This document shows positions 25,779-48,293 of a DNA stretch of 54,801 bases, in pieces; the stretch's first letter is position 1; the number at the start of each line of letters is the position of its first letter. The notes beneath the pieces are model-generated. The model saw only the letters and a list, made by a program, of their open reading frames with translations. It was not told where the DNA came from and ran no database searches. The position numbers and the translations under genes are program-made. Source of the DNA: Poseidonibacter lekithochrous (lineage in GTDB: Bacteria; Campylobacterota; Campylobacteria; Campylobacterales; Arcobacteraceae). The DNA is taken from assembly GCF_018861145.1 (NCBI RefSeq), contig NZ_JAHKQT010000031.1:1-54801 (forward strand). Direction: 5' to 3'.

Positions 25779-26759
25779 TTAAATTGGTAAAACTCTTATG
25801 TTTTCATCAATTTTTTGTTGTAATACAGATTCGATTGCATATAAAGTTCCAGTAGACCCAGACGAACATCCTGAACATGAACCTAAATATCTGATATATA
25901 AATCATAATGAGGAATATTATCTTTAATATCAATAATTTCCATATTTCCACCATCCATTACTAACATTGGTCTGATATCTTCATCTAATACTGAATCAAT
26001 AGTTTTAATTCTTTGAACTAAAGTCATTTTATCAAAAGTTAATTCTCCAGATTCACTAGCATCTGCTGCATTTTTCATTTTTTCTTCCTCCATTTGAGCT
26101 CTTGTATCAGCCAAGATATCAACTAAATAGTAATCCATTTCTTCGTGGCCACCTGGCTTAACACATGATTTACAAAAAGCACCTGCTTTTGTATAATCAG
26201 TAATTTGCTCAACTGTTTTTAAGTCATTAATTTTAATAACTTCTTGAATTGTTCCTAAACTTACTCTTGCACATTCACATACAATAATTTCAGTTTCAAA
26301 AGATTCCATATCAACACCTTTATACTCAGATGCTGCTTTTTTAATTACATCATAAGCCATAACTGAACAGTGCATTTTTTGTGGTGGAACAGCTGGAGTA
26401 TCTGGATTATCTCTTAATGCTTTTTCAACATCAATATTTGTAATCTTAACAGCTTCATCAACAGTTTTACCAACACATAATTCAGCCATAACATCAGAAG
26501 ATGCAATTGCCGTACCACAACCAAAAGATTTGAATTTAGATTCAACAATCTCATCAGTTTTTTCATTTACTGCCCAGTATAATCTTACTGCGTCACCACA
26601 TGATTCAGCACCAAAATCAGCAACAATTAATTTTGTTCCTAATTCTTTTGCTCGCTCTTCAGTAATTTCACCTTGATGTTGTGGGTTATTCATTCTATTT
26701 ACAACTTGATTTGAATACTCGTCCCAAATTGATCCACTAATTAAATCATTTTTTGCCAT
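25779..26759 (-). CDS. nifU: NifU-type Fe-S scaffold protein
   Basis: 326 residues with three modules. An IscU-like domain has cluster cysteines at 54, 81 and 131 (AESCGDA, FGCGTA, MHCSV). A central Fer2-BFD domain has Cys161, 163, 196 and 199 (CEC, CKSC). A C-terminal NifU domain has CSGC at 295-298. This is the full-length scaffold that receives sulfur from NifS and passes clusters to apoproteins. It lies 30 bases after nifS, with a strong AAGGAA ribosome site and a terminator downstream. No nitrogenase genes are seen, so it is a general Fe-S system as in Helicobacter. Confidence 0.95.
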   Translation of the reverse strand: MAKNDLISGSIWDEYSNQVVNRMNNPQHQGEITEERAKELGTKLIVADFGAESCGDAVRLYWAVNEKTDEIVESKFKSFGCGTAIASSDVMAELCVGKTVDEAVKITNIDVEKALRDNPDTPAVPPQKMHCSVMAYDVIKKAASEYKGVDMESFETEIIVCECARVSLGTIQEVIKINDLKTVEQITDYTKAGAFCKSCVKPGGHEEMDYYLVDILADTRAQMEEEKMKNAADASESGELTFDKMTLVQRIKTIDSVLDEDIRPMLVMDGGNMEIIDIKDNIPHYDLYIRYLGSCSGCSSGSTGTLYAIESVLQQKIDENIRVLPI

Positions 26760-26789: not shown

Positions 26790-27992
<1,203 letters not shown>

Positions 27993-28070
27993 CTATATTC
28001 CTATTAGTTTAATATTTTCTATTTTTTACTTTTAAATACTTTTTCTTAATTGATTTTCGTATTTTAGTGC

Positions 28071-28095
28071 AAATAGGATAAAAATTGTCTTAATT
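28071..28095. promoter_or_regulatory. Fe-S operator, nifS copy
   Basis: AAATAGGATA-AAAAT-TGTCTTAATT has the same 25-bp, 10-5-10 layout as the two sites before sufB. On the minus strand it lies just upstream of a TAAAAT (28061-28066) that could be the nifS -10 box, a position suited to repression. Confidence 0.65.
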
Positions 28096-28236
28096 AAGAT
28101 TTCAGAATCTTAATTATTAAATTTATCACAAATTTTCGGAATATTATAGTGGAATTTTTATAAATAAATAGACCATTAATAAAGTAATGTTAAGTTTAGT
28201 ATGGAATAATATTATAAAATTAACAAAAGGTACATA

Positions 28237-29031
28237 ATGAAAAAAATATTATTCACATTAATGTTTACATTAATATCTCTTACTTTAGCAGTTGCAGATA
28301 CTAAAGAAGACAAAAAAGTTTTAACAGTTGGTATGGAATTAGCATATCCACCATTTGAAATGAGTGATAAAGATGGTGTTCCTCAAGGTGTTTCAGTTGA
28401 TTTTGCAAAAGCACTTGGTGAATATTTAGGACGAGAAGTTGTTATTGAAAACACAGCATGGAGTGGTTTAATTCCATCTTTAAAAACAGGAAGAATTGAT
28501 TTAATTATTTCGTCTATGACAATTACAAAAGAAAGACAAAGATCTATTAATTTCTCAATTCCTTATGCGCAATCTTCACTTGCAATTTTAGCTAATAAAA
28601 ATTCTGGAGTTTCAAGTATTGATGATTTAGATAAAAAAGGGAAAAAAGTTGCAGTTAAAAAAGGTTCTACGGGACATGTTTACGTAAGCAAAAACTTTAA
28701 AAATGCAGATATCTTAGTATTTGATAAAGAAAATGCTTGTGTTCTTGAAGTAGTTCAAGGAAAAGTAGATGGTTTTTTATATGACCAATTAACAATTTAT
28801 AAAAATTATGTTCAACATAAAGATACAACTGTTGCTCTTTTAAAGTCTTTTCAAAAAGATTTTGAATACTGGGGTGTTGCATTAAACAAAAAAGATGTTG
28901 AGTTAAAAGAAAAAGTTGATGAATTTATCAAAAAAGCAAAAGCTGATGGTACCTTTGCTAAATTTGCAAAAAAACATTTATCTGAAGCAAAAGCTACTTT
29001 TGATGAATTAAATATACCTTTCTTTTTCTAG
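28237..29031 (+). CDS. Amino-acid ABC transporter binding protein
   Basis: 264 residues, family 3 solute-binding protein. A cleavable signal peptide (about 1-20, ending AVA-DT) is followed by LTVGMELAYPPFEM, GVSVDFAKALGEYLG and DLIISSMTITKERQ, the usual ligand-pocket segments for polar amino acids. Its TAG stop is in the same frame as the permease that follows, and the AGGGA ribosome site of that gene overlaps the stop. No ATPase gene is nearby, so a distant or shared subunit must energise transport. Confidence 0.92.
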   Translation: MKKILFTLMFTLISLTLAVADTKEDKKVLTVGMELAYPPFEMSDKDGVPQGVSVDFAKALGEYLGREVVIENTAWSGLIPSLKTGRIDLIISSMTITKERQRSINFSIPYAQSSLAILANKNSGVSSIDDLDKKGKKVAVKKGSTGHVYVSKNFKNADILVFDKENACVLEVVQGKVDGFLYDQLTIYKNYVQHKDTTVALLKSFQKDFEYWGVALNKKDVELKEKVDEFIKKAKADGTFAKFAKKHLSEAKATFDELNIPFFF

Positions 29032-29043
29032 GGAATTACTATC
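29030..29043 (+). promoter_or_regulatory. Ribosome site and ATC start of the permease
   Basis: AGGGA (29030-29034) overlaps the binding-protein stop, followed by ATTACT and ATC (29041-29043). Spacing is ideal, and no ATG, GTG or TTG occurs in frame until 29167, which has no ribosome site. Confidence 0.55.
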
Positions 29044-29832
29044 TTTAAAATAAAAAAATTATTTATAAATGAATTAACTTATAAAGAAAACAACTCCCTT
29101 TCATGGGGAGTTTATTTTTTCAATTTTATCTTTTTAAGTATAATCATAGTTACACCTGTTTATTTTATGTTTGCAAATATTTCTTATGACTTTAATTGGG
29201 AACATGTTTACGAATATAAACAAAAATTTATCAATGGTTTTTTAATGACCATTACTATTTCTTTTTTTGCTCTAATTTTAAGTTTTATAATAGGTCTATT
29301 TTTTACTTATGCTCAGAACTCTAGACTTATTATTTTAAGATTTTTTGCAAGATTTTATATTGAAATTATTAGAGGAACACCTTTGCTTGTTCAAATTCTA
29401 ATATTTTTCTATGTTTTTGCAAATAATTTAGGTTTTGAAAACCGATATATAGTAGGAACCTTTATCCTTGCAATATTTTCAGGAGCTTATGTATCTGAAA
29501 TAATAAGAGCAGCTTTACAATCAATTGATAAAGAACAGTATGAAACAAGTATAAGTTTAGGAATGTCAAACTACCAAACATATAGATATATAATCTTTCC
29601 TCAAGCTTTTAAAAGAATGCTTCCATCACTAACTGGACAGTTTGCTTCTATTATTAAGGATTCATCTTTATTATCAATTATTGCAATTTCTGAATTTACT
29701 ATGAATGCACAAGAAGTTGATGCAATTACCTACTCAACACTAGAGAGTTATATACCTCTTGCAATTGGATATTTATTATTAACCTATCCTATTTCTTACT
29801 ATACAAATAGATTAGAAAAAGATATTAAATAA
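29041..29832 (+). CDS. Amino-acid ABC transporter permease, apparent ATC start
   Basis: 263 residues from ATC 29041. HisM/GlnP-type permease with the EAA loop YETSISLGMSNYQTYRYII and FPQAFKRMLPS. Reading from ATC adds a basic N-terminus (FKIKKLFINEL) and a full first membrane segment (LSWGVYFFNFIFLSIIIV), as in the larger Campylobacterota permeases I recall. The ATG at 29167 would remove both and lacks a ribosome site. It is co-transcribed with the binding-protein gene; only a TAG separates the two in the same frame. The substrate is probably a polar amino acid. Confidence 0.85.
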   Translation: MFKIKKLFINELTYKENNSLSWGVYFFNFIFLSIIIVTPVYFMFANISYDFNWEHVYEYKQKFINGFLMTITISFFALILSFIIGLFFTYAQNSRLIILRFFARFYIEIIRGTPLLVQILIFFYVFANNLGFENRYIVGTFILAIFSGAYVSEIIRAALQSIDKEQYETSISLGMSNYQTYRYIIFPQAFKRMLPSLTGQFASIIKDSSLLSIIAISEFTMNAQEVDAITYSTLESYIPLAIGYLLLTYPISYYTNRLEKDIK

Positions 29833-29855
29833 CCTTTTTTATACACTTAACTTAT

Positions 29856-29880
29856 AAATAGGATATATATTGTCCTATTT
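29856..29880. promoter_or_regulatory. Fe-S operator, distal suf copy
   Basis: AAATAGGATA-TATAT-TGTCCTATTT. The outer 8 bases of each arm form a perfect inverted repeat. Centred at 29868, about 50 bases before the predicted suf transcription start and 58 bases from the proximal copy. Confidence 0.7.
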
Positions 29881-29902
29881 AAGTTTCGTTTAATTTAATT
29901 AC

Positions 29903-29911
29903 TGTTATATT
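29903..29911 (+). promoter_or_regulatory. Extended -10 promoter of sufB
   Basis: TGTTATATT, an extended -10 match, lies between the two operators. Predicted start is near 29918, inside the proximal operator. Confidence 0.5.
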
Positions 29912-29913
29912 TC

Positions 29914-29938
29914 AAATAGGACAATTAATGTCTTATTT
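29914..29938. promoter_or_regulatory. Fe-S operator, proximal suf copy
   Basis: AAATAGGACA-ATTAA-TGTCTTATTT with 9 of 10 arm positions complementary. It covers the predicted transcription start, as expected for a repressor site. Its GAC-N7-GTC core and 25-bp length match the layout of E. coli IscR type-1 sites. Confidence 0.72.
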
Positions 29939-29966
29939 AAAAAATTGAATAATTATGGAGTCAATT

Positions 29967-31412
29967 ATGAGTGAGAATAAACACATTCATGACGTTATTA
30001 ATAGTGAATATAAATTAGGATTTGAGACTTTAGTACAAAGTGATACTTTTCCTAAAGGACTAAATGAAAATGTTATAAAAGCAATATCTGCCAAAAAAGA
30101 AGAACCTTCTTGGCTATTAGATTTTAGGCTTAAAGCTTATGATAAATGGTTAAAAATGGAAGAGCCTTCTTGGGCAAACTTAAAATATCCAAAAATAGAT
30201 TATCAAGATATTGCATACTATTCAGCACCTAAAAAAGCTTTGGACTCTTTAGATGAAGTAGATCCAGAAATATTAAAAACTTATGAAAAACTAGGAATAC
30301 CCCTAGAAGAACAAAAACAACTAGCGGGTGTTAAAACTGTAGCTGTTGATGCCGTATTTGATTCTGTTTCAGTTAAGACAACTTATCAAGCAGAATTAGA
30401 AGAATTAGGAATTATCTTTTGTTCAGTTAGTGAAGCAGCAAATAGATTTCCAGATTTATTAAAAAAATATCTAGCATCTGTTGTACCTGTTACTGATAAT
30501 TATTTTGCATGTTTAAACTCGGCTGTATTTACAGATGGTTCATTTGTTTATGTTCCACCTAATACTATATGTCCAATGGAGTTATCTACGTACTTTAGAA
30601 TTAATGCTTTAGATACTGGACAATTTGAGAGAACAATTATTATATGTGATGAGAATTCATATGTTTCATACAATGAAGGATGTTCTGCACCAACTAGAGA
30701 TGAAAGACAACTTCACGCAGCAGTTGTTGAACTAGTAACACTTGATAATGCACAAATAAAATATTCTACTATTCAAAACTGGTATCCAGGTGATAAAGAT
30801 GGAAAAGGTGGAATTTTAAACTTTGTAACAAAAAGAGGACTATGTCTTGGTGATAGCTCAAAAATATCTTGGACACAAGTTGAAACAGGTTCTTCTTTAA
30901 CATGGAAATATCCATCATGTATATTAAAAGGTGATAACAGTGTTGGTGAATTTTATTCAGTAGCTATTTCATCAAAATCGCAACAAGCGGATACTGGAAC
31001 AAAAATGGTTCACTTAGGTAAAAATACTAAATCAACAATTATTTCAAAAGGTATTTCAGCAATGCATGGAGTAAATGCATATAGAGGATTAGTTCGTGTT
31101 GGGAAAAATGCAAGTGGTGCACGTAATATTTCAGAATGTGATTCACTTCTAATTGGAAACACATCAAATGCGCATACTTATCCATATCATGAAGTGAGAA
31201 ATATGGATGCAATTATTGAACATGAAGCTACAACTTCAAAGATTTCAGATGAACAACTTTTTTATATCTCACAAAGAGGTATTAGTGAAGAAAATGCCAT
31301 TTCAATGATTGTAAATGGTTTCTGTAAAGAAGTATTAAAAGAGTTACCAATGGAATTTGCTGCTGAAGCAAAAGAATTATTAAATATATCATTAGAAGGG
31401 AGCGTTGGTTAA
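29967..31412 (+). CDS. sufB: SufB, Fe-S scaffold subunit
   Basis: 481 residues. Component of the SufBCD scaffold that assembles [4Fe-4S] clusters. Typical segments are [39 protein letters not shown], the C-terminal [20 protein letters not shown] and [11 protein letters not shown] with a conserved Cys. An ATG at 29955 is in frame, but its following bases GGAG serve as the ribosome site 6 bases before ATG 29967. It is the first gene of sufBCDSET and is preceded by two copies of the operator also found before nifS. Confidence 0.96.
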
Positions 31413-31433: not shown

Positions 31434-32189
31434 ATGTTAGAAATAAAAGATTTAAAAGTAAATATAAATGATAAAGAGATTTTAAAAGGCTTAAACTTAA
31501 ATATTAAAGAAGGTGAAGTTCATGCTTTAATGGGAATTAATGGAGCGGGGAAATCAACTTTAGTTAAAACATTAAGTGCTCATTATGACTGTACTGTAAC
31601 AGAAGGTTCAATTACATATAAAAAGAAAAACTTATTAGATTTAGATGTTTCAGAACGTGCTAATGAAGGTATTTTTATGAGTTTCCAAAACCCTATTGAA
31701 GTTCCAGGAGTTAACAATAGCTATTTTCTAAAAACTGCAATAAATGAGAAAAGAAAATATGCAGGACAAGATGAAATTGATACTATGGATTTTTTAAAAA
31801 TCATTAAAGAGCAAACATCTAAATATAACCTTGATAAAAAACTTTTACAAAGAGATTTAAATGAAGGTTTTTCAGGTGGTGAAAAAAAGAGAAATGAATT
31901 AATTCAATTACTACTTCTTGATCCAGATTTAATTATGTTAGATGAAATAGATTCAGGTCTTGATGTAGATGCTATTAAAACAGTTGCAAATGTAGTAAAT
32001 GCAATGCTAGATGGTAAAAAGTCTGTACTTATGATTACGCATTATGATAGATTATTAGAATTAATTAAACCTGATTTTGTTCATATTTTAAATGACGGAC
32101 AAATTGTAAAAACAGGAGATTACTCTCTTGCTTTAGAGCTAGATGAAAAAGGCTATGAAGGAATAGGAATTAAAGATGAGACTAAATGA
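31434..32189 (+). CDS. sufC: SufC ATPase
   Basis: 251 residues, the ABC-type ATPase of the SufBCD complex. Walker A is GINGAGKST, the signature loop NEGFSGGEKKR, Walker B LIMLDEIDSGLD, and the switch histidine is in VLMITHYDR. It drives conformational change in SufB-SufD during cluster assembly in the cytoplasm. Its 3' end overlaps sufD by 14 bases. Confidence 0.97.
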   Translation: MLEIKDLKVNINDKEILKGLNLNIKEGEVHALMGINGAGKSTLVKTLSAHYDCTVTEGSITYKKKNLLDLDVSERANEGIFMSFQNPIEVPGVNNSYFLKTAINEKRKYAGQDEIDTMDFLKIIKEQTSKYNLDKKLLQRDLNEGFSGGEKKRNELIQLLLLDPDLIMLDEIDSGLDVDAIKTVANVVNAMLDGKKSVLMITHYDRLLELIKPDFVHILNDGQIVKTGDYSLALELDEKGYEGIGIKDETK

Positions 32190-33210
32190 TATTGAAGGGT
32201 TAGTTCTACCTGCTAAAAAAGATGAAGAATTTATAAAAGTAAATTTTGCAGAACTATTTTCATATGATTTTAAAAAAACTCAAAACTATGACTTAGATAT
32301 TATAGGACTGAAAGTAAAAAAAGATACAAAAGAATATGCAAATTCATTATTTGAGATAACAAAAAATATAGATAATAAACAAGTGATTTTAACAATAAAC
32401 GCTAATACTCCAGAACCAATTTGTTTAATTCATAAAATAAATGAAGATGAAACATTTTTTACAAACTCTTTAAAAGTTGAAGTTAAAGAGAATGTAAAAG
32501 CATCTGTGATTGAAGTTTTTACAAATACTTCAACAAATAGTGCATATTGCGTAAATAGATCTTTTGAAGTAAATGAAAATGCAAACTTAGAGTATGCAAA
32601 AATTCAAGATATAAATGATGCAAACTATTTGCTTTTTAATTTAGATATAGATCAAAAAGATAATTCAAAGTGTAAAATTACAAACTTTGAATATGGGAAT
32701 GGAATAATTATCAATAATATTATAAATATATTAGATAATAAAAATTGTGATTATGAGTTAAATTCATTAGTTAAATCTAATGACTCAGCAAATACAGCAA
32801 ATGTAATAAAAACAGTACATAATGGGGAGAGTTCAATAAGTAATATAAACTTTAAACATTCATTAAAAGATCATTCTCGTACAGTTTTCAAGGCTTTATC
32901 AAGAGTAAATAAAAATGCACTTTATACTAAAGCATTTCAAAATTCAAATACTATTTTACTTTCAAATGATGCAACTATTTATGCACAGCCACATTTAGAA
33001 ATTTTAATAGATGAACTTGAAGCTAGTCATGGTGCAACAACAGGAACTTTAGATAAAGATCAATTATTATATTTACAATCACGTGGAATAAATAAAAACT
33101 TAGCATATGAAATACTTTTAAAAGCTTTTGAAAGTAAAATATATGATAATATTGATGATAAATTAATTAAAGAATTTATGGATTCATATAAAAGGAAAAA
33201 CTATGTTTAA
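32176..33210 (+). CDS. sufD: SufD, SufB partner subunit
   Basis: 344 residues, shorter and more divergent than typical SufD. It has the SufB/SufD beta-helix C-terminus: HSLKDHSRTVFKALSRV, NALYTKAFQNSN and ILIDELEASHGATTGTLDKDQLLYLQSRG, which is the conserved SufD tail with the complex-forming histidine. The start overlaps sufC by 14 bases and the end overlaps sufS by 8, so translation is tightly coupled. Confidence 0.92.
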   Translation: MRLNDIEGLVLPAKKDEEFIKVNFAELFSYDFKKTQNYDLDIIGLKVKKDTKEYANSLFEITKNIDNKQVILTINANTPEPICLIHKINEDETFFTNSLKVEVKENVKASVIEVFTNTSTNSAYCVNRSFEVNENANLEYAKIQDINDANYLLFNLDIDQKDNSKCKITNFEYGNGIIINNIINILDNKNCDYELNSLVKSNDSANTANVIKTVHNGESSISNINFKHSLKDHSRTVFKALSRVNKNALYTKAFQNSNTILLSNDATIYAQPHLEILIDELEASHGATTGTLDKDQLLYLQSRGINKNLAYEILLKAFESKIYDNIDDKLIKEFMDSYKRKNYV

Positions 33211-34387
33211 AAAAGATTTCACATATTTTGAAAACTCAGACATAGTCTATTTAGATAATGCAGCAACTACTCAAAAACCAAAAGCAGTAGTTGCCTCGCA
33301 AGTTGAGTATTATGAAAAATATTGTGCAAATACACATAGAAGTAATTTTGGTGATGCAAACAAAGCAACACTTAAATTTGAAAATGCAAGAAAAACATTA
33401 AAAGAGTTTATAAATGCAAAAAATAAAGAAGAGATAATATTCACAAAAGGTGTAACTGAATCTATTAATTTTATTGCAAGCTCTTATGCAAAAGATTTTA
33501 AGACAATAATAATATCTTCGCTTGAACATCATTCAAATATCGTGCCTTGGCATATACAAGGAAGAAGTTTAGGAAAGGGACTTGAAGTTGTAAAGTACAA
33601 TAAAAACCTTGATTTTGATATGGAACATTTTGAAGATTTATTAAAAGAAAATCCAAAATCTTTTGTGAGTATTACACATATATCAAATGCCTTTGGAAAA
33701 ATACATGATATTAAACAAATTATTTCAATTGCTCATAAATATGATGCAGTAGTTATGATAGATGGAGCTCAAAGTTTGGCTCATATGAAAGTTGATATGC
33801 AAGAACTAAATGTAGATTTTTTTGCAATTTCAGGACATAAAACATTTGCACCAACAGGAGTTGGAGCTATTTATATAAAAGAGAAATATTTAAAAGATGT
33901 AAAAGCTTATCAAACAGGAGGAGCAACTATAGATCAAGTTGATTTTAATTCATCAACCCTATTGGACGCACCTTTTAAATTTGAAGCAGGAACACAAAAT
34001 ATAGCTGGAATAATAGGATTTGGAGAAGCTTTAAAGTATCTAAACCATATTGGTTATGAAAATATAGAAGCTATAGAGAAAGATGTTTTTAACTACTTAA
34101 ATAAAGAGTTAGAAAAACTTCCAAATATTATATTTTATAATGACATAAGTGATTCAATTGGAAGTAGAAGCTTTAACTTTAAAGGTCTTATTCATGATGA
34201 TGTTGGTATTTTAGTTGACAAAATGAAAATAGCATTAAGAGTTGGTCATCATTGTGCACAACCTATTATGAAAGACCTTAATATTAAAGGTACAATACGA
34301 GTATCAATTAGTTTTTATAATGATTATAGTGATGTTGATAAACTAATTGTCTCACTAAAAAGAGCTTTACAAATGTTAGAGAATTAA
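33203..34387 (+). CDS. sufS: SufS cysteine desulfurase
   Basis: 394 residues of the group II (SufS/CsdA) type. The PLP lysine is Lys213 in FAISGHKTFAPTG. The catalytic cysteine is Cys351 in RVGHHCAQPIM, in the short conserved loop typical of SufS. It passes persulfide sulfur to SufE, encoded next. The ribosome site AAAAGGAAAAA precedes ATG. A second desulfurase (nifS) lies 5 kb away, so the cell has both systems. Confidence 0.96.
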   Translation: MFKKDFTYFENSDIVYLDNAATTQKPKAVVASQVEYYEKYCANTHRSNFGDANKATLKFENARKTLKEFINAKNKEEIIFTKGVTESINFIASSYAKDFKTIIISSLEHHSNIVPWHIQGRSLGKGLEVVKYNKNLDFDMEHFEDLLKENPKSFVSITHISNAFGKIHDIKQIISIAHKYDAVVMIDGAQSLAHMKVDMQELNVDFFAISGHKTFAPTGVGAIYIKEKYLKDVKAYQTGGATIDQVDFNSSTLLDAPFKFEAGTQNIAGIIGFGEALKYLNHIGYENIEAIEKDVFNYLNKELEKLPNIIFYNDISDSIGSRSFNFKGLIHDDVGILVDKMKIALRVGHHCAQPIMKDLNIKGTIRVSISFYNDYSDVDKLIVSLKRALQMLEN

Positions 34388-34400
34388 AATAGGATTAAAA

Positions 34401-34808
34401 ATGAGTATTGAAAAAAGAGTAACAGATATAAAAGAAGATTTAGAATTTTTTGAAGATGAATTACAAAAATATGAATATATTATTGACTTAGGAAAAAAAC
34501 TAGACCCTTTAGATGAAAAATATCAAATACCTGCAAATTTAGTACATGGTTGTACTTCACAAGTTTGGTTAATATGTGAACAAGTTGATAATAAACTTAT
34601 CTTTAAAGGAACATCTGATGCAATAATCGTAAAAGGTTTAGTTTATATGATTTTACAAATATTTTCAGATTCTACAATTGAAGAATTACAAGAAATAGAT
34701 ATGGATATTGTTCATGAACTAAATTTAAGTGAAATAATAACACCAAATAGACAAAGTGGAGTTATTGGAATGATTAAAAAAATTAAAGAATATGCACTAA
34801 AAGCTTAA
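34401..34808 (+). CDS. sufE: SufE sulfur-transfer protein
   Basis: 135 residues, the usual size. The acceptor cysteine is Cys51 in NLVHGCTSQVWL. Accepts persulfide from SufS and stimulates it. It has an AGGA ribosome site and lies 13 bases after sufS. Confidence 0.95.
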   Translation: MSIEKRVTDIKEDLEFFEDELQKYEYIIDLGKKLDPLDEKYQIPANLVHGCTSQVWLICEQVDNKLIFKGTSDAIIVKGLVYMILQIFSDSTIEELQEIDMDIVHELNLSEIITPNRQSGVIGMIKKIKEYALKA

Positions 34809-34817
34809 AGGATTAAA

Positions 34818-35162
34818 ATGTCAAGTAATTACAATTTTGAGGAAATAAGAGAAAAGATAATAGAAAATCTAAAAAATGTATTTGATCCTGAAATTCCTGT
34901 AAATGTTTATGATTTAGGATTAATATATGAAATAAATTTTGAAGAAAAAGAAGAAGGCTTATACTGTGTTATAATGATGACTTTAACAAGCCCTGCATGT
35001 CCTGTTGCTGGAACAATAATGGAGCAAGTAAGACTTGTAACACAAGCTGTTGAAGAAGTAAATGAAGCAAAAGTTCATATAACATTTAAGCCAAGATGGA
35101 CAAATGATATGGTTAGTGAAGAAGGAAAAGAAATTATGGCAGCTTCAGGAGCAGTTATATAA
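34818..35162 (+). CDS. sufT: SufT-like DUF59/MIP18 protein
   Basis: 114 residues of the MIP18/DUF59 family: FDPEIPVNVYDLGLIYEI, then TLTSPACPVAGTIMEQV with the conserved cysteine. SufT proteins assist Fe-S cluster maturation or delivery to targets. It sits at the end of the suf gene set, 9 bases after sufE with an AAAGGAT ribosome site, which supports the name over other DUF59 members such as PaaD. Confidence 0.9.
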   Translation: MSSNYNFEEIREKIIENLKNVFDPEIPVNVYDLGLIYEINFEEKEEGLYCVIMMTLTSPACPVAGTIMEQVRLVTQAVEEVNEAKVHITFKPRWTNDMVSEEGKEIMAASGAVI

Positions 35163-48194: not shown

Positions 48195-48293
48195 AATTCT
48201 TCTCTTTTAATAAAATATATAATTGTAAGAAATAAGATATCAAAACTATTTAGAGAATAAGATAAAATTTGTCTTCTTTTAATTTACAGTGCT

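Follow-up and report, generated by a model that had tools for sequence, protein, structure and literature searches.

A palindrome shared by the nif and suf loci of Poseidonibacter lekithochrous and a candidate Rrf2-family regulator

Two iron-sulfur (Fe-S) assembly systems, NIF and SUF, are encoded within a 54,801-nucleotide stretch of the Poseidonibacter lekithochrous genome (contig NZ_JAHKQT010000031.1, positions 1 to 54,801, forward strand; hereafter the window), and similar palindromes precede nifS and sufB. This raises the question of whether one regulator acts on both systems, and which protein that would be. We consider it highly probable that these three palindromes serve a single Rrf2-family factor, whose gene lies outside the window, as operators. 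The sequence shows the sites themselves, their conservation, their placement at promoters, the wider set of targets, and the co-occurrence of the site with a candidate Rrf2 protein.

Palindromes and promoters in the window

A preliminary description of this DNA had reported three palindromes of 25 bp each, and both their positions and their length are confirmed in the sequence (Table 1). It had assigned them a single consensus, AAATAGGAYA-N5-TGTCYTATTT, which both suf copies fit exactly and from which the nif copy (AAATAGGATAAAAATTGTCTTAATT) departs by one mismatch. Its statement that the window contains no other full copy needs amending: a weaker one, GAATAAGATAAAATTTGTCTTCTTT, lies between selO (ydiU), which it precedes, and a thioredoxin-like gene in divergent orientation. 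When up to three mismatches are allowed, the window contains seven matches over both strands, at four places; 100 dinucleotide shuffles gave a mean of 0.18 matches and a maximum of 3. Sites were scored with a symmetric weight matrix built from seven sites of the window's genome that were picked by eye; the matrix was applied to individual sites and windows, and the wider genome was searched with patterns. The best score across 30 first-order Markov windows was 18.4, compared with 28.7–31.3 for the three main sites. Three other places (C33:66691, C41:60657, and C43:140681), scoring 7.9–13.7, were put aside as likely chance matches. An Rfam scan of the window returned no match, and thus no known RNA element at the nif or suf promoters.

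Table 1. Positions of the predicted operators, promoter elements, and Fe-S assembly genes in the window
Feature	Position	Strand	Remarks
nifU scaffold protein, downstream of nifS	25779..26759	-	best match TIGR02000, 226 bits (below cut-off 273)
nifS cysteine desulfurase	26790..27989	-	TIGR03403 nifS_epsilon, 650 bits (cut-off 588)
Predicted nifS -10 element, TAAAAT	28061..28066	-	just downstream of operator; family alignment
nif operator (predicted)	28071..28095	-	AATTAAGACAATTTTTATCCTATTT in nifS reading direction; score 28.7
Distal suf operator (predicted)	29856..29880	+	25 bp; matrix score 31.3
Predicted extended -10 of sufB, TGtTATATT	29906..29911	+	conserved in family alignment
Proximal suf operator (predicted)	29914..29938	+	over predicted transcription start; score 29.7
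sufB	29955..31412	+	PRK11814, 847 bits (cut-off 717)
sufC	31434..32189	+	TIGR01978, above cut-off
sufD	32176..33210	+	best match TIGR01981, below cut-off
sufS	33203..34387	+	best match TIGR01979, below cut-off
sufE	34401..34808	+	best match PRK09296, below cut-off
sufT-like (SUF-associated DUF59)	34818..35162	+	best match TIGR02945, below cut-off
Fourth, weaker operator (predicted) before selO (ydiU)	48255..48279	-	score 19.5

The positions of the palindromes relative to the promoters were examined in family alignments. When nifS promoters are aligned on the site, a -10-like TANAAT element conserved across the family follows the operator within a few bp, which would place the operator over the spacer and -35 region of the predicted promoter. 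Promoters of sufB carry a conserved TGTTATATT-like or TTACAAT element just upstream of the proximal operator, and because of this -10-like element the operator would overlie the transcription start. The alignments thereby support the earlier proposal that a suf copy covers the predicted start and that the nif copy overlaps its promoter. A consensus promoter scan of this AT-rich stretch of the window performed no better than it did on shuffles, and the promoter placement therefore rests on the family alignment. For sufB itself, the ATG at 29967, which follows GGAG, is a more likely start than the longest-ORF start at 29955.

Between nif and suf, at 28237-29832, lie genes for a substrate-binding protein and a permease of a cystine-type amino-acid ABC transporter; no ATPase gene stands beside them, and a terminator-like hairpin (29092-29112) separates the two ORFs. 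That the nif site exists to control the substrate-binding gene diverging at 28237 was considered and appears unlikely, since the site stays before nifS in relatives where the nifS-sufB gap excludes transporter genes.

Conservation of the site and its wider targets

The palindrome is conserved before both operons in relatives. The closest named loci to the window's nifS are those of Aliarcobacter and of other Arcobacteraceae and Campylobacteraceae metagenome-assembled genomes (MAGs). Within Arcobacteraceae, the nifS site is present in 25 of 26 loci, and the proximal sufB site scores above 15 in all 23 loci aligned. Among 23 Arcobacteraceae nifS sites, neither the left half AATTAAGACA nor the right-half TATCC varies, whereas the centre does. 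In 11 of the 23 family loci, a pair of copies lies no more than 130 bp from the sufB match; the window's suf copies are 58 bp apart, a spacing of 57–58 bp recurs in the ten two-copy loci that most resemble the window, and two suf copies at this spacing characterize the window's genus. Sites before nifS extend to MAGs of Sulfurospirillaceae, Sulfurovum, Sulfurimonas, and Campylobacter, with a weak one in Sulfuricurvum; they are absent in all seven named Helicobacter examined and at the nifS loci examined outside the phylum.

The fourth copy, before selO, is probably real too, because every family genome in which selO was found, nine with the window's own, has a site there (scores 19.5–28.2). 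In the eight relatives the scores are 21.1–28.2, and the distance from the gene match is 81–86 bp.

The motif is also far from random genome-wide: a stricter pattern hit 67 places in eight relatives, versus 6 for a reversed control pattern. Counted over nine genomes, namely these eight relatives and the window's own, the site lies upstream of the Fe-S carrier gene mrp/apbC in eight, thiol peroxidase (tpx) in seven, a desulfoferrodoxin-family superoxide reductase in six, fdhA (a formate dehydrogenase-type molybdopterin oxidoreductase with an Fe4S4 domain) in five, and a HAD phosphatase in four. The site precedes flavodoxin, ccoN, and cytochrome c peroxidase in two genomes apiece. A single genome has it before each of nifH, a globin, a Fur-type/rubrerythrin pair, and rrf2 itself, and such single-genome targets may include chance matches. 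As judged from these genes, the target set reads as Fe-S assembly together with the defence of Fe-S proteins. One relative has a strong copy upstream of nitrogenase nifH (G022, C1 49123-49147), and the regulator may also touch nitrogen fixation. In another, an operator-like site separates a small gene of unknown function from a thiC-like gene, whose product is an Fe-S enzyme (G002, C1 2846267).

The candidate regulator and competing explanations

The preliminary description had predicted a single Rrf2/IscR-like regulator encoded outside the window. The genome contains two Rrf2 genes, neither of them in the window, and the likelier of the two lies outside the curated IscR group, which refines that prediction. 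The candidate (L020) is a protein of 133 amino acids encoded after rpsO on contig C2 (60056-60454), with no isc, nif, or suf gene within 1.5 kb on either side. It matches the Rrf2 family models PF02082 (101.7 bits, cut-off 30) and TIGR00738 (112.9, cut-off 73.3) and scores below the curated cut-offs of every more specific model considered: the IscR equivalogs TIGR02010 and PRK10857 (77.4 of 207.55 and 50.5 of 275), NsrR in its E. coli-type model PRK11014 (37.7 bits of 182), CymR (35.5 of 195), RirA (55.6 of 193), and suf_reg_Xantho (64.6 of 110.65). On these model scores we accordingly assign it to Rrf2 and keep it apart from IscR.

Three cysteines in the candidate's C-terminal loop, a trait of Rrf2 Fe-S sensors, are Cys91, Cys98, and Cys106; they are nearly invariant in 48 orthologues (Cys91 and Cys106 in all, Cys98 in 47), with a spacing that is mostly C-x6-C-x7-C. 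Position 8 is Glu in 45 of the 48, and of the three exceptions (G047, G050, and G129) the two that could be examined both lack a site at the desulfurase gene; a Cys3-Glu8 cluster is a reasonable guess. Where IscR has Glu43, the candidate's position 41 is Ala in 47 orthologues and Ser in one, which leaves no Glu43-type helix, and every orthologue has Lys at position 42. In the window's genome no site was seen close to the candidate's gene, a point against its ownership of the palindrome. A site precedes rrf2 itself in one relative (G010, C1 1633847-1633871), with weaker ones in two others (G029 and G035), which suggests that the gene regulates itself in some lineages, though not in the genus of the window.

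The palindrome is very probably the candidate's site, because site and protein appear and disappear together. Among the first 60 relatives, the orthologue is missing from five (G032, G037, G038, G043, and G048), and these have no nifS site or, for G043, no sufB site. In an independent sample of the order, comprising 60 new nifS upstream regions with a site defined as a score of at least 15, the nifS site is present in 35 of 44 genomes with the orthologue versus 1 of 16 without it (Fisher p = 3e-7, a value that overstates significance, being uncorrected for the tree when relatives are not independent). Losses of the orthologue fall mainly in two families (f13 and f23), plus about four single lineages. 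Exceptions occur in both directions. A nifS site with no orthologue found is seen in G195, G065, G091, and, weakly, G078, which are MAGs or fragmented assemblies from which the gene may be lacking; an orthologue with no clear nifS site is seen in G013, G015, G049, G050, G129, G186, and G210, in four named MAGs, and in part of family f14.

Four other explanations were weighed. The one that survives best, although we judge it unlikely, is that the Rrf2 protein binds but activates at some sites, or acts as the apo protein, in the manner of E. coli apo-IscR at suf. The distal suf site does lie upstream of the promoter, and 47 of 48 orthologues have Ala at the place of IscR Glu43; an E43A substitution lets apo-IscR bind type 1 sites (PMC5411485, PMC3899308). 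The family-wide positions of the suf site over the predicted start and of the nif site over the -35 region and spacer, however, both fit repression.

It is quite improbable that an unrelated regulator (Fur, PerR, or an HP1021- or CosR-like protein) binds the palindrome and that the Rrf2 protein merely co-occurs with it. Factors of these types control oxidative-stress genes in Campylobacterota, and such genes are among the targets; the few genomes with a site and no detected Rrf2 orthologue would also fit. Yet Helicobacter, which retains Fur and HP1021, has neither the site nor the candidate Rrf2. The palindrome also has the GAC-N7-GTC core found in Rrf2 sites (PMC9973013, PMC3899308).

The second Rrf2 protein of the genome (L019, contig C14) is CymR-like (112.5 of 195), has no ligand cysteines, and is encoded in the order metY-rrf2-cysK; it is probably a cysteine regulator. 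If it owned the site, the operator would report cysteine supply and not Fe-S status. In favour of this are its presence in the genome as an Rrf2 protein, its Glu-Gln recognition helix, which is that of IscR, and the cystine-type transporter between nif and suf. The pattern of co-occurrence nonetheless makes this ownership very improbable, and we rejected it: in six genomes (G013, G014, G028, G031, G039, and G054) the sites are present and the candidate is the only Rrf2, which is evidence against the CymR-like paralogue; G037 has the CymR-like type and lacks the site; and in four relatives (G004, G022, G024, and G026) a nifS-sufB gap of at most ~400 bp leaves no room for the transporter while the sites are kept.

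A chance origin, or a promoter element common to both operons and bound by no regulator of its own, has a negligible probability: the genome is AT-rich and the nif copy overlaps promoter elements, but palindrome counts and scores far exceed those of shuffles and controls, the nif site precedes its -10 element whereas the proximal suf site follows its own, and conservation before nifS and sufB already contradicts chance.

Proposed mechanism and relation to known Rrf2 systems

Returning to the candidate Rrf2 protein as owner of the palindrome, we infer its binding, its cluster, and the sign of its regulation as follows. The protein would carry an Fe-S cluster held by the three cysteines and perhaps Glu8, and the cluster-loaded form would bind the palindrome. 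Bound protein would cover the -35 and spacer region at nifS and the transcription start at sufB, and in both places would block RNA polymerase while Fe-S supply is sufficient. Under iron, sulfur, or O2 stress, the protein would lose its cluster and be released from DNA, leading to joint induction of NIF, SUF, the Mrp carrier, thiol peroxidase, and superoxide reductase. The two suf sites in the window's genus may, as a guess, provide tighter or delayed control of SUF.

A broader proposal, to which we give somewhat less than even credence, is that the candidate represents an undescribed Rrf2 subfamily with a Cys3-Glu8 sensor (C-x6-C-x7-C) that acts as the chief regulator of Fe-S homeostasis in the order of Arcobacter, Sulfurimonas, Sulfurovum, and Campylobacter, that uses one operator to tie NIF, SUF, and Mrp assembly to the defence against superoxide and peroxide, and that was lost together with its operator in Helicobacter. 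A search of the open-access literature brought up no study of Fe-S assembly under Rrf2 control in this group of bacteria; the rrf2 of one paper (PMC12567157) is a gene listed with rrf1 and rrf3, not a member of the Rrf2 regulator family, and is irrelevant here. If the candidate is indeed the owner of the palindrome, a regulator, an operator, and a target list become available for the whole order, shared control of two assembly machineries becomes testable through one gene deletion, and it becomes easier to understand how microaerobes of this kind keep their Fe-S supply in balance with O2.

Taken on the sequence evidence, the observation and main interpretation of the preliminary description stand, with a conserved site and a well-supported regulon. 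They are refined in three respects: the regulon is wider, the likely regulator is a Cys3 protein outside the curated IscR group with an NsrR-like helix, and the core of the site is also that of RisR.

The preliminary description had compared the palindromes with IscR type 1 sites, and the 25-bp length and GAC-N7-GTC core do agree with those of E. coli and Pseudomonas IscR (ATASYYGACTRWWWYAGTCRRSTAT; PMC3899308), although the flanks are AAATAG here and ATASYY there. IscR also exerts feedback control on Fe-S assembly, and the candidate's best PDB sequence matches are IscR. The two proteins differ in that IscR has Glu43-Gln44 where the candidate has Ala-Lys, in cysteine spacing, and in gene location, which is the isc operon for IscR and beside rpsO for the candidate; in E. 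coli, moreover, apo-IscR activates suf via another (type 2) site. Streptomyces coelicolor NsrR has Ala44 and Lys45 in its recognition helix and Asp8 as the fourth cluster ligand (PMC5411485). The candidate likewise has Ala-Lys at the specificity positions of that helix and an acidic residue at position 8, Glu in place of Asp, but its predicted targets are Fe-S assembly and oxygen defence, with a globin target in one genome only. RirA and suf_reg_Xantho are Rrf2 Fe-S regulators of iron or suf genes, as the candidate is proposed to be, and their models match it in part.

By mechanism and experiment, the closest precedent is RisR of Myxococcus xanthus, whose holo form represses isc and suf via T(t/g)GAC-N7-GTCC(t/a) (PMC9973013). 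The RisR gene lies inside the suf operon, whereas the candidate's gene is unlinked, and RisR targets ISC and SUF where the targets here are NIF and SUF. In both systems, one palindrome lies over promoter elements before two Fe-S assembly operons, under a single Rrf2 Fe-S protein in RisR (PMC9973013) and, as we propose, in the candidate. The GAC-N7-GTC core is common to both, extended to GGAC-N7-GTCC in the best copies here, and the three ligand cysteines of RisR, at positions 92, 102, and 108, have their counterparts at 91, 98, and 106 of the candidate.
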